A program made the translations under genes and the position numbers. A stretch of DNA of 43,392 bases, taken from a virus. The notes under the pieces are model-generated. The model did no database searches and was not told the origin of the DNA. It saw only the letters and a program-made list of their open reading frames with translations. The DNA is taken from IMG/VR virus record IMGVR_UViG_3300020183_000153, positions 1 through 43,392 of that record. One strand, given 5' to 3'. Of the stretch, positions 798 through 33,948 are shown one piece after another (within the stretch, counting starts at the first letter, position 1; every line of letters begins with the position of its first letter).

Positions 798-3470
798 TTA
801 TTTGTTTGAATGTTGATGTATTATTTCCTTTATTTCTTCAAGATTACCTGGATTGATATCAAGATAACTTCTAATAAAATATTTTCTAGCTTCGGCTAAA
901 TTATTTTGACGTAGCAATGCTAGCAGTTGATTTGGTTCGTTAAGCGAGTACGCTCTCTGTCCGGGTATCAACAAGTATTCTCTGTTACCTGGATATACTT
1001 TTATTGAAATTACTCGAGTTCCGTTAGCAAGTCTTATTACATAAATTCTACTAGTTAGGGCTGCATAAGCGGCTTCTACTTGACCGGCATTACCTAGTAG
1101 TTGATTTCTACGACGTGCACCTCCATCTACCCTTGGATTGAGTCGAGCACCGTTTGTAATATTTAATCTCCTTCTATCATTATTAGGAATCCGGAAAAAC
1201 TGCCCCTCGGCACCTAGACCTTGCATCATCTGTACGATATTAACGTCGCCTATGGGGGCAGGTTGTTGATAATAGGTACGGGCTGCTTGCTGTCCTTGCT
1301 GTTGAGCCGTCGTAGTTTGCTGAGGTGCTGTTTGAGTGCCAGGCTCAGTCGGTGTAATTAATCTAAGAAGTTGATTATACCTGCCTTGAGATAATATAGC
1401 ACCTACTACATTACCTGTTCTTGGAGAGAGCCTTAAGCTATTACGGCGATTGACTGTATTAAGTAAAAAGATTTCTCCATTCGAATCTATTACAGGTTTC
1501 AGTACGTTATTAGGATCAAGAGGCGGATAAGAATTTAAAAAGTTTCTTTTTTCTCTAGAATTTAATGAGTAATTGAGTATACCTTTTAATTTTTCATCGT
1601 CAATAAATTGGTTTGTTTGTCTAAGATAATTCAAATATTTATCGTATTGTGCAGTTTCTATTCTAGACCCCCCATTATTATCTCTACCGGCATACTTCCT
1701 TACTGGAATAAAATAGGAACTTACAGATTCAGGCGTTTTTTCCATAAAGTAGATAAGGGGTTCTCCTGAGGCGACATCCGCAAAGGCGACTACTTCCTTT
1801 GAACTCCCCCCTGACGTACTTGCAAGATTCATCGTCCTTTGGTCATAAGGTAAAGAGTTTATAATATTTATTAAAGCGCCAAGGTTTATGTATTTAGGTA
1901 AGTCTTCTCTACTGTTCAAACTACTAAAGACCTGTAATGCATTTTTTTTGAATTCATCACTACTTATTGCATCTTTGAAAGCACTTTGTACTTCTTCGTC
2001 AGTAAACGGAACTTGTTTGATTTCGCTTCCTTTTACTTTATAAGCAGTAAGTGATGTGGCATCTATTATGATTTTTCCGTCCTCTGTATCTTTCACCGTA
2101 ATAGGGGAGTTCGGTTTATCTTTTATATTATCTAATACTTTTTGTATTACATTGAAATCAATAATTCCTTTTTCAGATAATTTTACTAGAGATACGAAAG
2201 GTATTTCATCTAATCCAGGATAGTCTAGTAGGTATTTAGATGTTCTTTTATTTAATTTAATATCAGGATATTCATCTTCGGCTTGGTATAATCCTATCTT
2301 TACGTCATCTCCTAGAGTTAGTTTAACTATAGTGTCTCCGTCAGCGGTAACATATAATCTCTGGTTAGGATCTAGTTCCCATTTTTTTAATTTTACTAAA
2401 ATCTTTTTTACACCAAAAGGAATTGAATCGGAAGCAAGGAGTTTCGTTTCAATAGGGGTATGTAGATTACTTGTAACTGACTTTCTAGCTTCGTCGGGGA
2501 AATTATTTAAGTTTTTTAATAATAGTTTAGGTTTTATTAGATCAGGTGTTCTAACTACAAACCTTAATACGTCTGGAAATTTAGATAATCTGTCTCTTAC
2601 AAATTCATCATCAGTAATATCGGAAAATAACTTAGCATTACTATCAGACTCTCTTGCATTCTTTCTAGCAACTAAGTAAGCCTCTTTATCCTTATAAGGG
2701 AATCCTGTCCACTCTCTATAATTTACAGTATTTCTTCTATACTGATGCACCATTTTCTCTTGTGAAGATAACGGTACGTACTTGATTATGGATTTTAGAT
2801 TTGGTACCTCTCTTAACCAGGGTGCTTCATTTAGCAACTCTTCAAACGTAATTGGATCAGGATAATGCGGGCTATTGTCTCTAGGATGTAGGACATAATT
2901 TTCATTACCAAAAACTTTTGGATCTCTTACAGCAATAACAACAAAGCTTAATTTATTGCTTTTGGGTAAATTAGTATTTTTTGCTAAATAGAATGTTGGA
3001 TATCCTCTTGCTTCACTGTACCTATGTCCTGACCAAGAAGATTGAGAAATACACCAACTCTCACCCTTACCGTACTTAATACAAGTGCCTTCAGTATTAC
3101 CATTATAAATTATTATGCTATTGTCATCATTATGATAGACTACATCAGGTGTTATTTCTTCACCTTCTTCCTTATCGTCCTCTGTTTTACCTTGAGTTAC
3201 AACTCTTATAAGCTCAGGTACTTTGTAATTAGCCAGATCTCTACGATCAATAGGAAGTTTTTCTTTAATTTTATCAAAGATTTTGATATACTTCCTTAGT
3301 TCTTCTTCTGAAACATCTAAATTCAAATCTTCGGCTTGCTCTAAAAATCTCTTTATGAAACCGGTGATAGCTTTTTCGCTATATGCTTCAAAAAGCCTTT
3401 TAGGTCTGCCGCATGATTTACATTCGGAATTATTCGTTAGTATGTCTATTAATTTATACATATTTACCAA
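798..3470 (-). CDS. Large phage protein with a YGKGESWC motif, unknown function
   Basis: An 890-residue protein. The N-terminus carries a CxxC pair (C17, C20). Around residues 105-175 there is a compact block with YGKGESWCIS followed by tyrosine-rich strands and FYLAKN. A similar G-x-S/T-W-C block occurs in unannotated proteins of many large phages (from memory, not searched). A Gln/Thr/Ala-rich linker near residues 695-725 separates a C-terminal beta-rich part. ATG at 3470 overlaps the upstream stop by 7 nt. A second ATG three codons later (3461) would remove the overlap and is equally good. No enzymatic role can be assigned; the size and position suggest a virion or host-takeover protein, which is inference. 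Confidence 0.85.
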   Translation of the reverse strand: MVNMYKLIDILTNNSECKSCGRPKRLFEAYSEKAITGFIKRFLEQAEDLNLDVSEEELRKYIKIFDKIKEKLPIDRRDLANYKVPELIRVVTQGKTEDDKEEGEEITPDVVYHNDDNSIIIYNGNTEGTCIKYGKGESWCISQSSWSGHRYSEARGYPTFYLAKNTNLPKSNKLSFVVIAVRDPKVFGNENYVLHPRDNSPHYPDPITFEELLNEAPWLREVPNLKSIIKYVPLSSQEKMVHQYRRNTVNYREWTGFPYKDKEAYLVARKNARESDSNAKLFSDITDDEFVRDRLSKFPDVLRFVVRTPDLIKPKLLLKNLNNFPDEARKSVTSNLHTPIETKLLASDSIPFGVKKILVKLKKWELDPNQRLYVTADGDTIVKLTLGDDVKIGLYQAEDEYPDIKLNKRTSKYLLDYPGLDEIPFVSLVKLSEKGIIDFNVIQKVLDNIKDKPNSPITVKDTEDGKIIIDATSLTAYKVKGSEIKQVPFTDEEVQSAFKDAISSDEFKKNALQVFSSLNSREDLPKYINLGALINIINSLPYDQRTMNLASTSGGSSKEVVAFADVASGEPLIYFMEKTPESVSSYFIPVRKYAGRDNNGGSRIETAQYDKYLNYLRQTNQFIDDEKLKGILNYSLNSREKRNFLNSYPPLDPNNVLKPVIDSNGEIFLLNTVNRRNSLRLSPRTGNVVGAILSQGRYNQLLRLITPTEPGTQTAPQQTTTAQQQGQQAARTYYQQPAPIGDVNIVQMMQGLGAEGQFFRIPNNDRRRLNITNGARLNPRVDGGARRRNQLLGNAGQVEAAYAALTSRIYVIRLANGTRVISIKVYPGNREYLLIPGQRAYSLNEPNQLLALLRQNNLAEARKYFIRSYLDINPGNLEEIKEIIHQHSNK

Positions 3471-31314: not shown

Positions 31315-31566
31315 TGATATATATTTTAGTTAATTTAAAAAATTTGCCAGCGGGTAATTCATCACTCACGCTCCGCTTATCCGCGTATACCCTGTTAGTA
31401 GCTGTAATTACAGTGGTGTTAGGATGGGGTCAGCTACCTCCACACTGCCGTCACTTGACAGCAGGTGGGGGCAACTTTTTTCATCAAGCCCCCCGGAGGG
31501 GGAGAGGATCTATGGAGGGGAGTTATGAAACCCCTCTTCCTCTCTCCGACCAACTATCACAAAGCC
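31315..31566. other. Non-coding gap with two GC-rich hairpins
   Basis: These 252 nt hold no credible gene. A long hairpin can form at 31440-31468 (CCAC-CTGC-GTC against GAC-GCAG-GTGG, one bulge, one mismatch), followed after 7 nt by six T on the plus strand. A second hairpin lies at 31490-31502 (CCCCC, loop GGA, GGGGG). The GC content is much higher than in the flanks. The first could be a plus-strand terminator or part of a small RNA; I see no plus-strand promoter of the known type before it. Confidence 0.4.
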
Positions 31567-31797
31567 TTAATCATCTTCTTCAGGTACTTCCTCTGTATCT
31601 ACTGTATGTATTACAAGGGTACTAAGGAGATGATTATAATCCCCTGCCATACATTCAGTCATTACTTTATCTATTTCATCTTTTGTCCAGCCCTGTTTAC
31701 GGGCATTCTTTGAAAAGGCTCCCATGAGGCTAAATGCATTACCATCTAGCCCTACAAGGTTCATTTGAACTGTCTTACCATTTACTAAGTTTGTCAT
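31567..31797 (-). CDS. Conserved small phage protein (NLVGLDGNAFSLMGAF family)
   Basis: A 76-residue protein whose middle, NLVGLDGNAFSLMGAFSKNA then KQGWTKDEIDKVMTECMAGD, is a pattern I recall from small unannotated proteins of many unrelated phages and plasmids. Function is not known in any of them. The C-terminus is acidic (EEVPEEDD). An early promoter of the standard layout lies 22-55 nt upstream (31820-31852), and the leader TAGTTATAACTAAAAATCAA precedes the start. Confidence 0.85.
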   Translation of the reverse strand: MTNLVNGKTVQMNLVGLDGNAFSLMGAFSKNARKQGWTKDEIDKVMTECMAGDYNHLLSTLVIHTVDTEEVPEEDD

Positions 31798-31819
31798 ACG
31801 TTTTGATTTTTAGTTATAA

Positions 31820-31852
31820 CTAAAGATAAGTACTTCAGACCAATCTGGCAAC
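31820..31852 (-). promoter_or_regulatory. Early promoter of the 76-aa gene
   Basis: Minus strand: GTTG (31852-31849), 20 nt, TATCTTTAG (31828-31820). The spacer contains CCAGATTGG. Confidence 0.75.
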
Positions 31853-31853
31853 T

Positions 31854-32027
31854 TTATTTTACCTTAGGCAATAGGGCCGATATTACAAAAGGTAGGCCAA
31901 GGAATAAGATAACATAGATCGTTCCTACATACTCAGGTACTTCAACAGTCTGTTCGGTAGGCTCACATACAGCCAACAGAGCAAGGAAGATCCAAAGCAG
32001 AGATAGAATAGAGATAATTACTTTCAT
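31854..32027 (-). CDS. Small two-span membrane protein
   Basis: Read directly: ATG 32027, TAA at 31854-31856, 57 residues (MKVIISILSLLWIFLALLAV...). Two membrane helices (IISILSLLWIFLALLAV and IYVILFLGLPFVISALLP) flank an acidic loop (CEPTEQTVEVPEYVG), so both ends are probably on the same side. The gene has its own early promoter at 32049-32081 with exact spacing, and ends two bases before the -33 box of the next promoter. These placements make it very likely real. Function unknown. Confidence 0.75.
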   Translation of the reverse strand: MKVIISILSLLWIFLALLAVCEPTEQTVEVPEYVGTIYVILFLGLPFVISALLPKVK

Positions 32028-32048
32028 AGCTTTCGTTTTTAGTTTGAA

Positions 32049-32081
32049 CTAAAGATAGGCTTTACTTTCCAGACTGGCAAC
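32049..32081 (-). promoter_or_regulatory. Early promoter of the 57-aa membrane protein
   Basis: Minus strand: GTTG, 20 nt, TATCTTTAG (32057-32049). The spacer opens with CCAGTCTGG, an imperfect palindrome shared with the promoters at 36421 and 40221. Confidence 0.78.
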
Positions 32082-32082
32082 T

Positions 32083-32529
32083 TTATTTTTTAGCAAACAA
32101 AGTTAATCCTTTCAGCTCTCTTGCGGACCAATCTTGATCAAATAGGACAACTTGCTTTCTTCCATACCAAGTAGTACGAAACTCCAAATGCTTAAACAGA
32201 TGTGTTAATAAAGTACCAGCTATAAGTTCACCGTTAAGAGGAGTCTTGTTTTGACGATTTGCCCGTTCCAAGATATCAACTCTTATTTCGAGTATAACAT
32301 CATGGGCTCCCTTAAAGTATTCACATAGGATATCATAACCTACTTCATAAGGACTTAAGTACCCGCTCAGCTCCCTAAAAAATGTGTTCCAAGGACCTTC
32401 AGTCTCTTGCTCTGTATGAAACTTTTCATTATAGTACAGCATGTCAATTGCTGTAACAATCCTTGTTGTAAGGGTAAGAGAGACTTTGTAGTCCTCAAAC
32501 TTCTCAACTCTTAATACTACATCTGACAT
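32083..32529 (-). CDS. Hypothetical early phage protein
   Basis: A 148-residue protein with alternating helix and strand (RVEKFEDYKVSLTLTTRIV; GYDILCEYFKGAHDVILEIR; LFKHLEFRTTWYGRKQVVLF). No known motif is visible. Codon use is normal, with C present throughout, in contrast to the two genes transcribed just before it. Its promoter (32551-32583) marks the left limit of the G-free segment: the -7 box still contains C on the minus strand and G on the plus strand, while its spacer and -33 box do not. Confidence 0.82.
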   Translation of the reverse strand: MSDVVLRVEKFEDYKVSLTLTTRIVTAIDMLYYNEKFHTEQETEGPWNTFFRELSGYLSPYEVGYDILCEYFKGAHDVILEIRVDILERANRQNKTPLNGELIAGTLLTHLFKHLEFRTTWYGRKQVVLFDQDWSARELKGLTLFAKK

Positions 32530-32550
32530 AACTTTAATTTTTAATTATAA

Positions 32551-32583
32551 CTAAAGATAAGTACTCCCAACCAAATTTCCAAA
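32551..32583 (-). promoter_or_regulatory. Early promoter of the 148-aa gene, partly inside the G-free segment
   Basis: Minus strand: TTTG (32583-32580), exactly 20 nt, TATCTTTAG (32559-32551). The -33 box is the full Bacteroidota consensus TTTG. Most of the spacer lies in the G-free segment. Confidence 0.75.
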
Positions 32584-32637
32584 AAATATAATAATTATTT
32601 TCAAACTATTTCATCATTATTATATTAATTAAATTAC

Positions 32638-33054
32638 CTACAACATTTCTTTAACCAACTCCCCTATTAATTTATCTACATCAACCTCTCCCCCTAAATT
32701 TTTCAAAATTAATTTATCTATCACTTCATTCCTCATAACATAACCACTACTATAATTAATTTTAATATCACTATTTCCATACACATTAATACCACTCCAA
32801 CCAATCCAACCATTATTACTACCCCCACTTAACTTATACTTTTCATTTAACTTCTTTATCTTCCCATTAATTTCATCCCCCTTTCCTTTAACAACCTTTA
32901 ACAACTTATCCAACTCCTCTCCCTCTTTCAATAACTTCCCCCACTCTTTATCCTTCTTCAACTTTTCCCCCATTACTCTTTTCCTCTCTACTTCAACTTT
33001 TTTACAAACTACACCACTAATAACTTCAATTTCTTTTTTCATTAATTTTTTCAT
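32638..33054 (-). CDS. C-free early gene A: 138-aa protein lacking Ala, Pro, Thr, His and Gln
   Basis: The coding strand contains no C. Only the 15 amino acids that can be encoded with A, G and T occur, and Leu is only TTA/TTG, Ser only AGT, Arg only AGA/AGG, Asp GAT, Asn AAT. The frame is uninterrupted, with stop TAG. The first about 75 residues are Lys/Glu-rich helix (KKVEVERKRVMGEKLKKDKE; EEINGKIKKLNEK-type). Then a Gly/Asn/Trp-rich part (GGSNNGWIGWSGINVYGNSD) and a C-terminal helix with LGGEVDVDKLIGELVKEML follow. This order of regions looks like a normal folded protein. I do not recognise the family. It has its own exactly spaced promoter (33077-33109). Confidence 0.85.
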   Translation of the reverse strand: MKKLMKKEIEVISGVVCKKVEVERKRVMGEKLKKDKEWGKLLKEGEELDKLLKVVKGKGDEINGKIKKLNEKYKLSGGSNNGWIGWSGINVYGNSDIKINYSSGYVMRNEVIDKLILKNLGGEVDVDKLIGELVKEML

Positions 33055-33055
33055 A

Positions 33056-33117
33056 ACTTTTAATTTTTAATTTAAACTAAAATTACATACTCCCAACCAA
33101 ATTTCCAAATTTATTTC
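33056..33117. repeat. 62-bp direct repeat, copy 1 (promoter and leader of gene A)
   Basis: Identical base for base to 33360-33421. It includes the leader, the -7 box, the 20-nt spacer and the -33 box of the promoter, and has no plus-strand G. The surrounding genes are not alike, so the promoter unit itself was duplicated or kept identical. Confidence 0.9.
33077..33109 (-). promoter_or_regulatory. C-free early promoter of gene A
   Basis: Minus strand: TTTG (33109-33106), 20 nt, TAATTTTAG (33085-33077). Both boxes keep the phage consensus although no C is present; the C of the usual TATCTTTAG has been replaced. Confidence 0.75.
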
Positions 33118-33359
33118 AAATTATTTTTTAACTTTTTTATCCAATATACATATTCCTCATTATACTCCTCATACTCCTTACTAAACTCTTCATTATACAA
33201 AATCAATTCTAAATTCTTTTCATCCCAATAATAACTTTCATCTTCATCCCATTCCTCAACATTCTTTCCCTTCCCTTTTTTATAATTCCATTCTAACCAT
33301 TCCACAAAACTTTTTAAATCATTACTCATTTTTTTAAACCTAAATACTTTCTTTTCCAT
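33111..33359 (-). CDS. C-free early gene B: 82-aa acidic protein lacking Ala, Pro, Thr, His and Gln
   Basis: The coding strand again has no C, and the protein uses only A/G/T codons. It starts MEKKVFRFKKMSNDLKSFVE and continues with an acidic, Trp/Tyr-rich helical body (VEWLEWNYKKGKGKN; WDEDESYYWDEKNLELILYN; EEYNEEYVYWIKKLKNNLK). The strong aromatic and acidic content suggests a protein-binding role, but no known family is recognised. It is transcribed first in the pair, from promoter 33381-33413, and has a 56-nt gap to gene A that contains A's own promoter. The intact frame and promoter argue that it is expressed. Confidence 0.82.
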   Translation of the reverse strand: MEKKVFRFKKMSNDLKSFVEWLEWNYKKGKGKNVEEWDEDESYYWDEKNLELILYNEEFSKEYEEYNEEYVYWIKKLKNNLK

Positions 33360-33421
33360 ACTTTTAATTTTTAATTTAAACTAAAATTACATACTCCCAA
33401 CCAAATTTCCAAATTTATTTC
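33360..33421. repeat. 62-bp direct repeat, copy 2 (promoter and leader of gene B)
   Basis: Identical to 33056-33117. It begins directly next to the start codon of gene B. Confidence 0.9.
33381..33413 (-). promoter_or_regulatory. C-free early promoter of gene B
   Basis: Minus strand: TTTG (33413-33410), 20 nt, TAATTTTAG (33389-33381), the same as the promoter of gene A. Confidence 0.75.
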
Positions 33422-33453
33422 TTAAAAAATAAAAAAATATTTATTTGAGAAAA

Positions 33454-33486
33454 GTTGGATCGTTGGGAGTAAGTACGTAATCTTAG
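33454..33486 (+). promoter_or_regulatory. Divergent plus-strand promoter of the same early family
   Basis: Plus strand: GTTG (33454-33457), exactly 20 nt, TAATCTTAG (33478-33486). The spacer carries GTTGGGAGTA, the same string found in the promoter upstream of the 148-aa gene. It begins 7 nt after the end of the G-free segment and points away from it. Confidence 0.55.
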
Positions 33487-33492
33487 CTCTGA

Positions 33493-33911
33493 ATTAGAAC
33501 TAAAGCTCTTTAAAGGAATCGGGAAAGGATCAGGACTGCGGCCCTCAAGCTGGAAGCTTGCGTGGTACGAAGAAAAAAAGGTGAGGCTAAGGTGAGGCGT
33601 TGTAAAACTTTTAAGCGCTATTACCAATCAGCTTTAAGATAACTAAACAAACCTCTTATCTACCTTAGATTAACTGTACCGAACCTATCAGAAAAAGCAA
33701 GCTGGAAGGTTGCTTTAAAGCTTAAGCTGTACCACGAAAGGTTTAGAGACCTGTTCTAAGAATGTAAAGTATATAGCCTATTATACACCTAACTCGCCTT
33801 GCTACTTAATGCCGCTCTGGCAAGATCTAGAATACTTTATATCCTTGTATCTCCTTTAGTATATCGGCTATTAATATAGTATACATAAAAAAAGAGATAC
33901 CTTATGTATCC
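33493..33911 (+). ncRNA. Candidate structured non-coding RNA
   Basis: No ORF with a sensible start follows the divergent promoter on the plus strand. The region shows nested complementarity. TTAGAAC (33494-33500) pairs with GTTCTAA (33753-33759). CGTGGTAC (33561-33568) pairs with GTACCACG (33729-33736). CTAAGGT (33587-33593) pairs with ACCTTAG (33662-33668), with GAGG/CCTC inside it. Hairpin 33546-33560 (CAAGC, TGGAA, GCTTG) and hairpin 33694-33716 (AAAGCAA...TTGCTTT) share the apex C-TGGAA-G. AGGTGAGGC occurs twice in tandem (33580-33588, 33590-33598). The 3' end is unknown; I set it at the hairpin near 33896-33910. The pairings are found by eye and some may be chance. Confidence 0.4.
33887..33910 (-). 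terminator. Weak intrinsic terminator after the cysteine-peptidase-like gene
   Basis: On the minus strand GATAC, loop ATAAG, GTATC is followed by TCTTTTTTT. The stem is only 5 bp, so efficiency is doubtful. Confidence 0.4.
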
Positions 33912-33930
33912 CTTTCTCTCCTTGTATATA

Positions 33931-33947
33931 GTACAATGCAATTGTAC
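33931..33947. repeat. Palindrome GTACAAT-GCA-ATTGTAC, copy 1
   Basis: Perfect 7-bp arms around a 3-nt loop, directly after the stop codon of the gene at 33949-34395. Near-identical copies flank the gene at 40685-41026. Confidence 0.7.
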
Positions 33948-33948
33948 C

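Follow-up and report, generated by a model that had tools for sequence, protein, structure and literature searches.

What could remove one base completely from one strand of a phage genome, over a length that spans two genes and the non-coding sequence around them? This question is raised by a stretch of DNA (the window) that comprises an entire IMG/VR virus record of 43,392 bases (IMGVR_UViG_3300020183_000153). The record is a partial phage genome: the window is a fragment of a contractile-tailed phage with baseplate genes and promoters of the Bacteroidota type.

The C-free zone of the window

The preliminary description of this DNA had reported 885 consecutive nucleotides without G on the plus strand, at positions 32562-33446. 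This proved exact on recount. A direct base count gave 289 A, 229 C, 367 T and no G, and the second-longest G-free run of the window measures 66 nt. With the G fraction of the window (0.169), the chance of any given 885-nt run being G-free is ~10^-71. The genes of the zone are encoded on the minus strand, which is accordingly free of C. Two genes in the window have 0% coding-strand C, and no gene falls in the 0-10% interval. Compared with the window average, the minus strand of the zone contains more T (33% vs. 29%), A (41% vs. 35%), and G (26% vs. 19%). Both reading frames are open, as had been described, and encode proteins of 138 and 82 amino acids with codons that need no C; Ala, Pro, Thr, His, and Gln are missing.

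In the direction of transcription, the zone contains the promoter of gene B (33382-33413, minus strand), a host-type Bacteroidota promoter without C (-33 TTTG, -7 TAATTTTA) that belongs to the 70-nt repeat family D2. Gene B follows at 33111-33359 (82 aa, 0 C in 249 nt). The promoter of gene A (33078-33109) is nearly identical to that of gene B, with the same -33 and -7 elements in a 70-nt repeat of 96% identity, and precedes gene A at 32638-33054 (138 aa, 0 C in 417 nt). Gene A is followed by a 3' hairpin (32581-32626) with the conserved loop GATGAAATAGTTTGAAAATA, a stem of A-U pairs only, and a U-run. The zone also includes most of the promoter of the next gene (32552-32583), the -7 box of which (TATCTTTA) contains C. 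The first minus-strand C past the zone lies at 32561, and the zone boundary at 32562 is two bases upstream of this -7 box. The next gene (32083-32529, minus strand, 148 aa) is the first outside the island and has an ordinary C content (68 of 447 nt). On the other side, the ~500 nt adjoining the island (33447-33948) contain no clear genes and fold no better than shuffled sequence. A promoter-like element on the plus strand at 33454-33485 has GTTGGGAGTA in common with the island promoters.

Searches with the individual proteins of genes A and B returned nothing from IMG/VR, and the island proteins gave nothing in INPHARED and only weak matches when sequences were compared with Pfam, PHROG, and the PDB. 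Scans for Rfam families and tRNAs found none. In the AlphaFold model of the gene A product (pLDDT 73), a helical hairpin is accompanied by two further helices, and comparison with the PDB gave no significant match. A profile scan with family A yielded no confirmed relatives, probably because its low-complexity first sequence served for confirmation. Gene A belongs to a family (24-34% identity), and its full-length members in eight other phage contigs have 0-1 C. For gene B, the searches recovered no homologue.

Recurrence of C-free islands in immuto-like phages

The window shares a DUF932 protein (37% identity), an HD phosphohydrolase (42%), and a baseplate wedge protein (43%) with Flavobacterium phage immuto, which was isolated on Flavobacterium sp. 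LMO8. The terminase, portal, capsid, baseplate, and DUF932/HD-phosphohydrolase genes are markers common to the group of immuto-like myophages; the head genes lie outside the window fragment. The terminases of the C-free phages are 52-76% identical to that of immuto.

Coding-strand C-free islands of ~300-1,890 nt were found in ~20 further IMG/VR phage contigs, one per phage. A search for 120-nt C-free stretches in the whole records of relatives recovered islands in G010 (~1 kb) and G011. When IMG/VR was searched with the hairpin loop TGAAATAGTTTGAAAAT, C-free runs of 1890 (L072), 1171 (L111), and 986 nt (L066/L085/L097) were obtained, together with runs of 628, 597, 592, 488, and 479 nt and more. 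In all of IMG/VR, a C-free pattern anchored in the UTR had only 14 matches, most of them inside such islands, including the multi-gene islands of L136/L137, and a promoter-anchored C-free pattern gave nothing. A similar pattern applied to 257 Gb of bacterial and archaeal genomes yielded 11 matches, all low-complexity or extremely AT-rich; as low-complexity or AT-rich endosymbiont or phytoplasma sequence, these were rejected as islands. The matches in G005 (the L021 record) were likewise rejected as tandem repeats. Such C-poor tandem repeats (GTTATTGTTGGAGTAAT-like) occur in G005 and in L064 (3151-5086), with C-free runs of up to 189 nt, and are low-complexity sequence of a different kind.

Per-gene counts of coding-strand C in 19 records revealed a sharp split, with one island per phage at exactly 0 C and the other genes mostly above 8-10%. 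There was no comparable drop in coding-strand G in any of the 19 records. A few phages (G029, G031, G033) also have some C-poor neighbours of the island. C-poor genes with 1-6% C were seen near islands in NC_055915 (72224-72406) and G029 (101619-105873), which suggests that selection is graded or that recruitment was recent. L132 encodes small proteins with repeated, AT-hook-like 'RGRPVN(V/E)NS.RQ.RL' motifs (2807-3139 and 443-856) immediately downstream of C-free genes.

The island genes are small (~50-190 aa) and fall into several families (gene A, 'GSRG', 'CGNDNEY', 'LNDLYYC', and others). One of their products, a 63-aa protein of G028, is similar to PHROG families from ordinary phages. Purifying selection on family D ('LNDLYYC') is strong (dN/dS 0.03-0.05), and the synonymous sites of this family vary without using C; constraint on family A is weak (dN/dS 0.5-0.8). 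The residual C's tend toward ACT, in numbers that are small and come partly from homologous genes. The isolate immuto itself encodes a C-poor homologue of the island genes of G021, G022, G010, G011, and G028: gp143 has 5 C in 357 nt, the next lowest immuto gene having 5.5% C. It lies between DUF932 and the HD-phosphohydrolase/baseplate block, a position comparable to that of the window's island.

The island lies within a block (31400-33945) that the syntenic relative L005 lacks at this place, its flanking genes being the same; this assigns the island to accessory sequence. The L005 contig itself opens within a C-free tail that carries the 3' hairpin of the island and is located upstream of DUF932, and L006, the nearest near-identical contig from the same phage, begins at window position 31903. 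Most of the relatives' contigs end short of the island. As contigs of the group sometimes break at or near the island, surveys may under-count islands.

Strand-specific, transcript-bounded exclusion of C is an established property of immuto-like phages, and the island in the window is one member of a recurrent class of strand-specific "C-exclusion islands" in these phages. The preliminary description had allowed for a single odd isolate or an assembly fault, and C-free relatives in many independent assemblies contradict both. Identical C-free regions were recovered from other phages in independent assemblies (L066/L085/L097, L062/L131, L136/L137), diverged homologues are all C-free, and the homologue in the isolate immuto is C-poor. 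An assembly or sequencing artefact, to which we assign a practically negligible probability as an explanation, is refuted for the phenomenon as a whole. In its favour, the window's own island was not independently re-assembled, because L006 starts at 31903.

Island boundaries and the transcription unit

Each island extends from approximately the -7 box to the stop codon or terminator without C in the coding strand, and hence without G in the template strand. In L126, L065, L072, and L111, C is last seen two bases before the -7 box begins and is retained in the promoter spacer. Between its island genes, L096 has isolated C's, each located in a promoter spacer that separates a stop codon from the next -7 box. 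At the other end, the first C's after the genes of L080, L126, and L136 fall in a GC-rich terminator-like hairpin. The preliminary statement that the rule covers two genes and their promoters requires correction as regards the promoters: these five relatives retain C in the spacer, and their C-free stretch begins at or close to the -7 box.

Non-coding RNA obeys the rule as well. The 3' hairpin with the conserved loop lacks G-C pairs in 16 of 17 island copies and has at least one in all 23 copies elsewhere, which indicates that its structure is kept despite the rule. Many unrelated-looking phages have, between genes, a hairpin whose loop (GAAATAGTTTGAAA) is strictly conserved and whose stems vary (L067 4066-4082, L101, L102, L108, L121, and others; 32581-32626 in the window). 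It had no match in Rfam and is possibly a 3' end or processing element. We rejected codon, tRNA, or amino-acid bias as the cause, since UTRs and hairpins are C-free too. The earlier view that the constraint is strand-specific and acts on the transcript or transcribed region is borne out. Its suggestion of palindrome or restriction-site avoidance was also rejected, because it leaves the strand-specificity and the transcript boundaries unexplained.

The -7 box contains C in 1 of 17 C-free genes compared with 55 of 129 normal genes (p = 0.003), a difference confounded by promoters that lie inside islands. In the window, G010, G022, and G024, the C-free zone reaches at least 50 nt further upstream, an extension that transcription alone does not require. 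This anatomy agrees with three readings, namely exclusion of C from the RNA, of G from the template strand, or of C from the exposed non-template strand.

Association with genes for 7-deazaguanine modification

Phage immuto encodes FolE, QueC, QueD, QueE, QueF, and DpdA. The FolE/Que/DpdA pathway puts 7-deazaguanines into DNA. QueC and DpdA are encoded by all five C-free phages with suitable records, namely G022, G025, G029, and G030 (156-167 kb) and G027 (68 kb), in which DpdA matches gp206 of immuto at E values of 1e-31 to 1e-51. These five records were picked up through their islands, and because DpdA/QueC and the island are traits of one lineage, their association does not count as independent evidence. 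Neither dpdA nor QueC is present in the window, which is a 43-kb fragment. In six Bacteroidota phages that lack QueC, all C-free runs are shorter than 142 nt. The dCMP hydroxymethylase/thymidylate synthase family (PF00303) was detected in 1 of 22 C-free records, many of them fragments, and this sole match, in G025, is 57% identical to the annotated ThyA of immuto.

With immuto DpdA as query, the closest DpdA proteins among database phages belong to a Campylobacter phage group (43-44%). One study reports that 100% of dG is replaced by dADG in the Campylobacter phages CP220 and CPt10, which belong to this group (PMC8306585). T7 RNA polymerase is inhibited when the template strand carries bulky or charged bases, and such bases are tolerated in the non-template strand (PMC11550810). 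Given the 7-deazaguanine link, the absence of template-strand G is at least as natural a reading of the islands as the absence of C in RNA. The preliminary description, which is partly supported overall, did not consider exclusion of template-strand G linked to 7-deazaguanine DNA.

We tentatively favour a mechanism in which the island is a bootstrap cassette with a G-free template, readable from modified-G DNA, and would rate its probability as somewhat short of even. In the DNA of immuto-like phages, guanine would give way to a 7-deazaguanine derivative that FolE, QueD, QueE, and QueC synthesize and DpdA inserts. Modified G in the template strand may then hinder, mark, or misdirect RNA polymerase, and modified G in the non-template strand would be tolerated. 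Genes that had shed all template G could be fully transcribed from modified DNA before the polymerase is adapted, and the island would act as an immediate-early cassette for small host-takeover or polymerase-adapting proteins. It is possible, and we hold this more cautiously still, that the phage lineage as such boots via base-excluded units, only templates free of the modified base being transcribable after entry and their products allowing the polymerase to read the rest. A C-poor -7 box is expected if the melted template is also constrained; promoters inside islands confound this point.

Several observations count against this bootstrap mechanism. No C-free gene was found in CP220, where all dG is reported to be replaced; G replacement alone is therefore not sufficient, and the mechanism would have to invoke a different 7-substituent or a different polymerase. 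The majority of genes in these phages have an ordinary C content and must be transcribed somehow. Small 7-deazapurine modifications have been reported to be compatible with transcription by bacterial polymerase (PMC11550810). Finally, the preference of residual C for ACT is not predicted, and no reading predicts it cleanly.

Alternative explanations

The main rival holds that C in RNA is intolerable, because CTP runs out or is supplanted by a chain terminator (for example, ddhCTP from prokaryotic viperins), and that counter-defence or takeover genes have shed every C. We consider it rather unlikely, even if much of the anatomy agrees with it: the zone limits coincide with transcription start and terminator, coding and non-coding RNA both obey, the C's that are present in terminator-like hairpins stand where ending does no harm, exact zero is what a cost on every C would produce, and the island is located in an accessory block. 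It does not predict the loss of C from the untranscribed -7 box, the residual ACT preference, or the G-modification pathway in every suitable record; in addition, the promoters look host-type, and no CTP-depleting phage defence was found in the literature searched. The absolute absence of C from transcript start to stop, UTRs and hairpins included, would also follow if a C-specific ribonuclease, acting in host defence or phage takeover, destroyed C-containing messages and only those of the island survived. Such an enzyme, of which we identified none, would need to leave tRNA, rRNA, and every other phage mRNA intact and would not account for the -7 box; we consider this explanation improbable.

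To the same low degree we credit an exclusion of C that serves unstructured mRNA, Rho immunity, or a replication-priming R-loop. Rho requires pyrimidine-C at its primary site, and C-free RNA can form neither G-C pairs nor Rho sites; the single island per genome is also origin-like. Scattered C's should nevertheless be tolerated under this explanation, and runs of up to 1,890 nt have none. Moreover, the hairpin is kept, and the folding energy of the C-free transcript is equal to that of shuffled sequence. A mutational process that removed all C, for example cytosine deamination of the non-template strand, would account for the strand-specific, transcription-bounded pattern. The preliminary description had listed exhaustive deamination among its explanations, and the composition of the zone speaks against it: measured against the window average, G and A make up for the lost C in roughly equal shares, with T contributing least. 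In two independent homologous pairs, the codon found opposite the rare ACT is AGT and not ATT, and the strong purifying selection on family D is likewise at odds with such a process, which we regard as very improbable.

Significance and comparison with known systems

Our search of the open-licence literature returned no description of comparable natural base-excluded transcription units, in agreement with the preliminary view that no such system has been described. Natural protein-coding units that lack one base, conserved in a lineage and made up of several gene families, point to strong selection of a kind for which we found no description. If the template-G reading is true, the islands show how transcription starts in phages with fully modified DNA and provide candidates for proteins by which RNA polymerase is adapted to non-canonical DNA. 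Should the CTP reading be true, they indicate an unknown or under-appreciated CTP-directed defence together with its counter-measure. As immuto has been isolated on a known host (Flavobacterium sp. LMO8), both readings are open to experiment.

Among known systems, the 7-deazaguanine phages with DpdA and QueC (Campylobacter CP220/CPt10, immuto) resemble the C-free phages in that the five suitable records encode both proteins and in that immuto DpdA is closest to those of phages with full G replacement. They differ in the absence of a C-free gene from CP220, and the literature that we found on this group is, as far as its accessible text goes, silent on base-excluded islands. T4-type phages with modified cytosine (HMC DNA, Alc shut-off) share the modification of a DNA base and the control of transcription by base identity. 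Unlike them, the C-free phages lack the thymidylate synthase/dCMP hydroxymethylase family in 21 of 22 records, many of which are fragments, and to our knowledge T4 genes themselves are not base-depleted. The ddhCTP produced by prokaryotic viperins causes chain termination. By analogy, each C in an island transcript would be a potential stop, which would fit the terminator boundary. In synthetic G-less and C-less cassettes, the transcribed region lacks one base, which makes elongation independent of one nucleotide. The islands likewise lack one base from the transcribed region; whereas those cassettes are laboratory constructs, the islands are natural, protein-coding, and widespread in one lineage.
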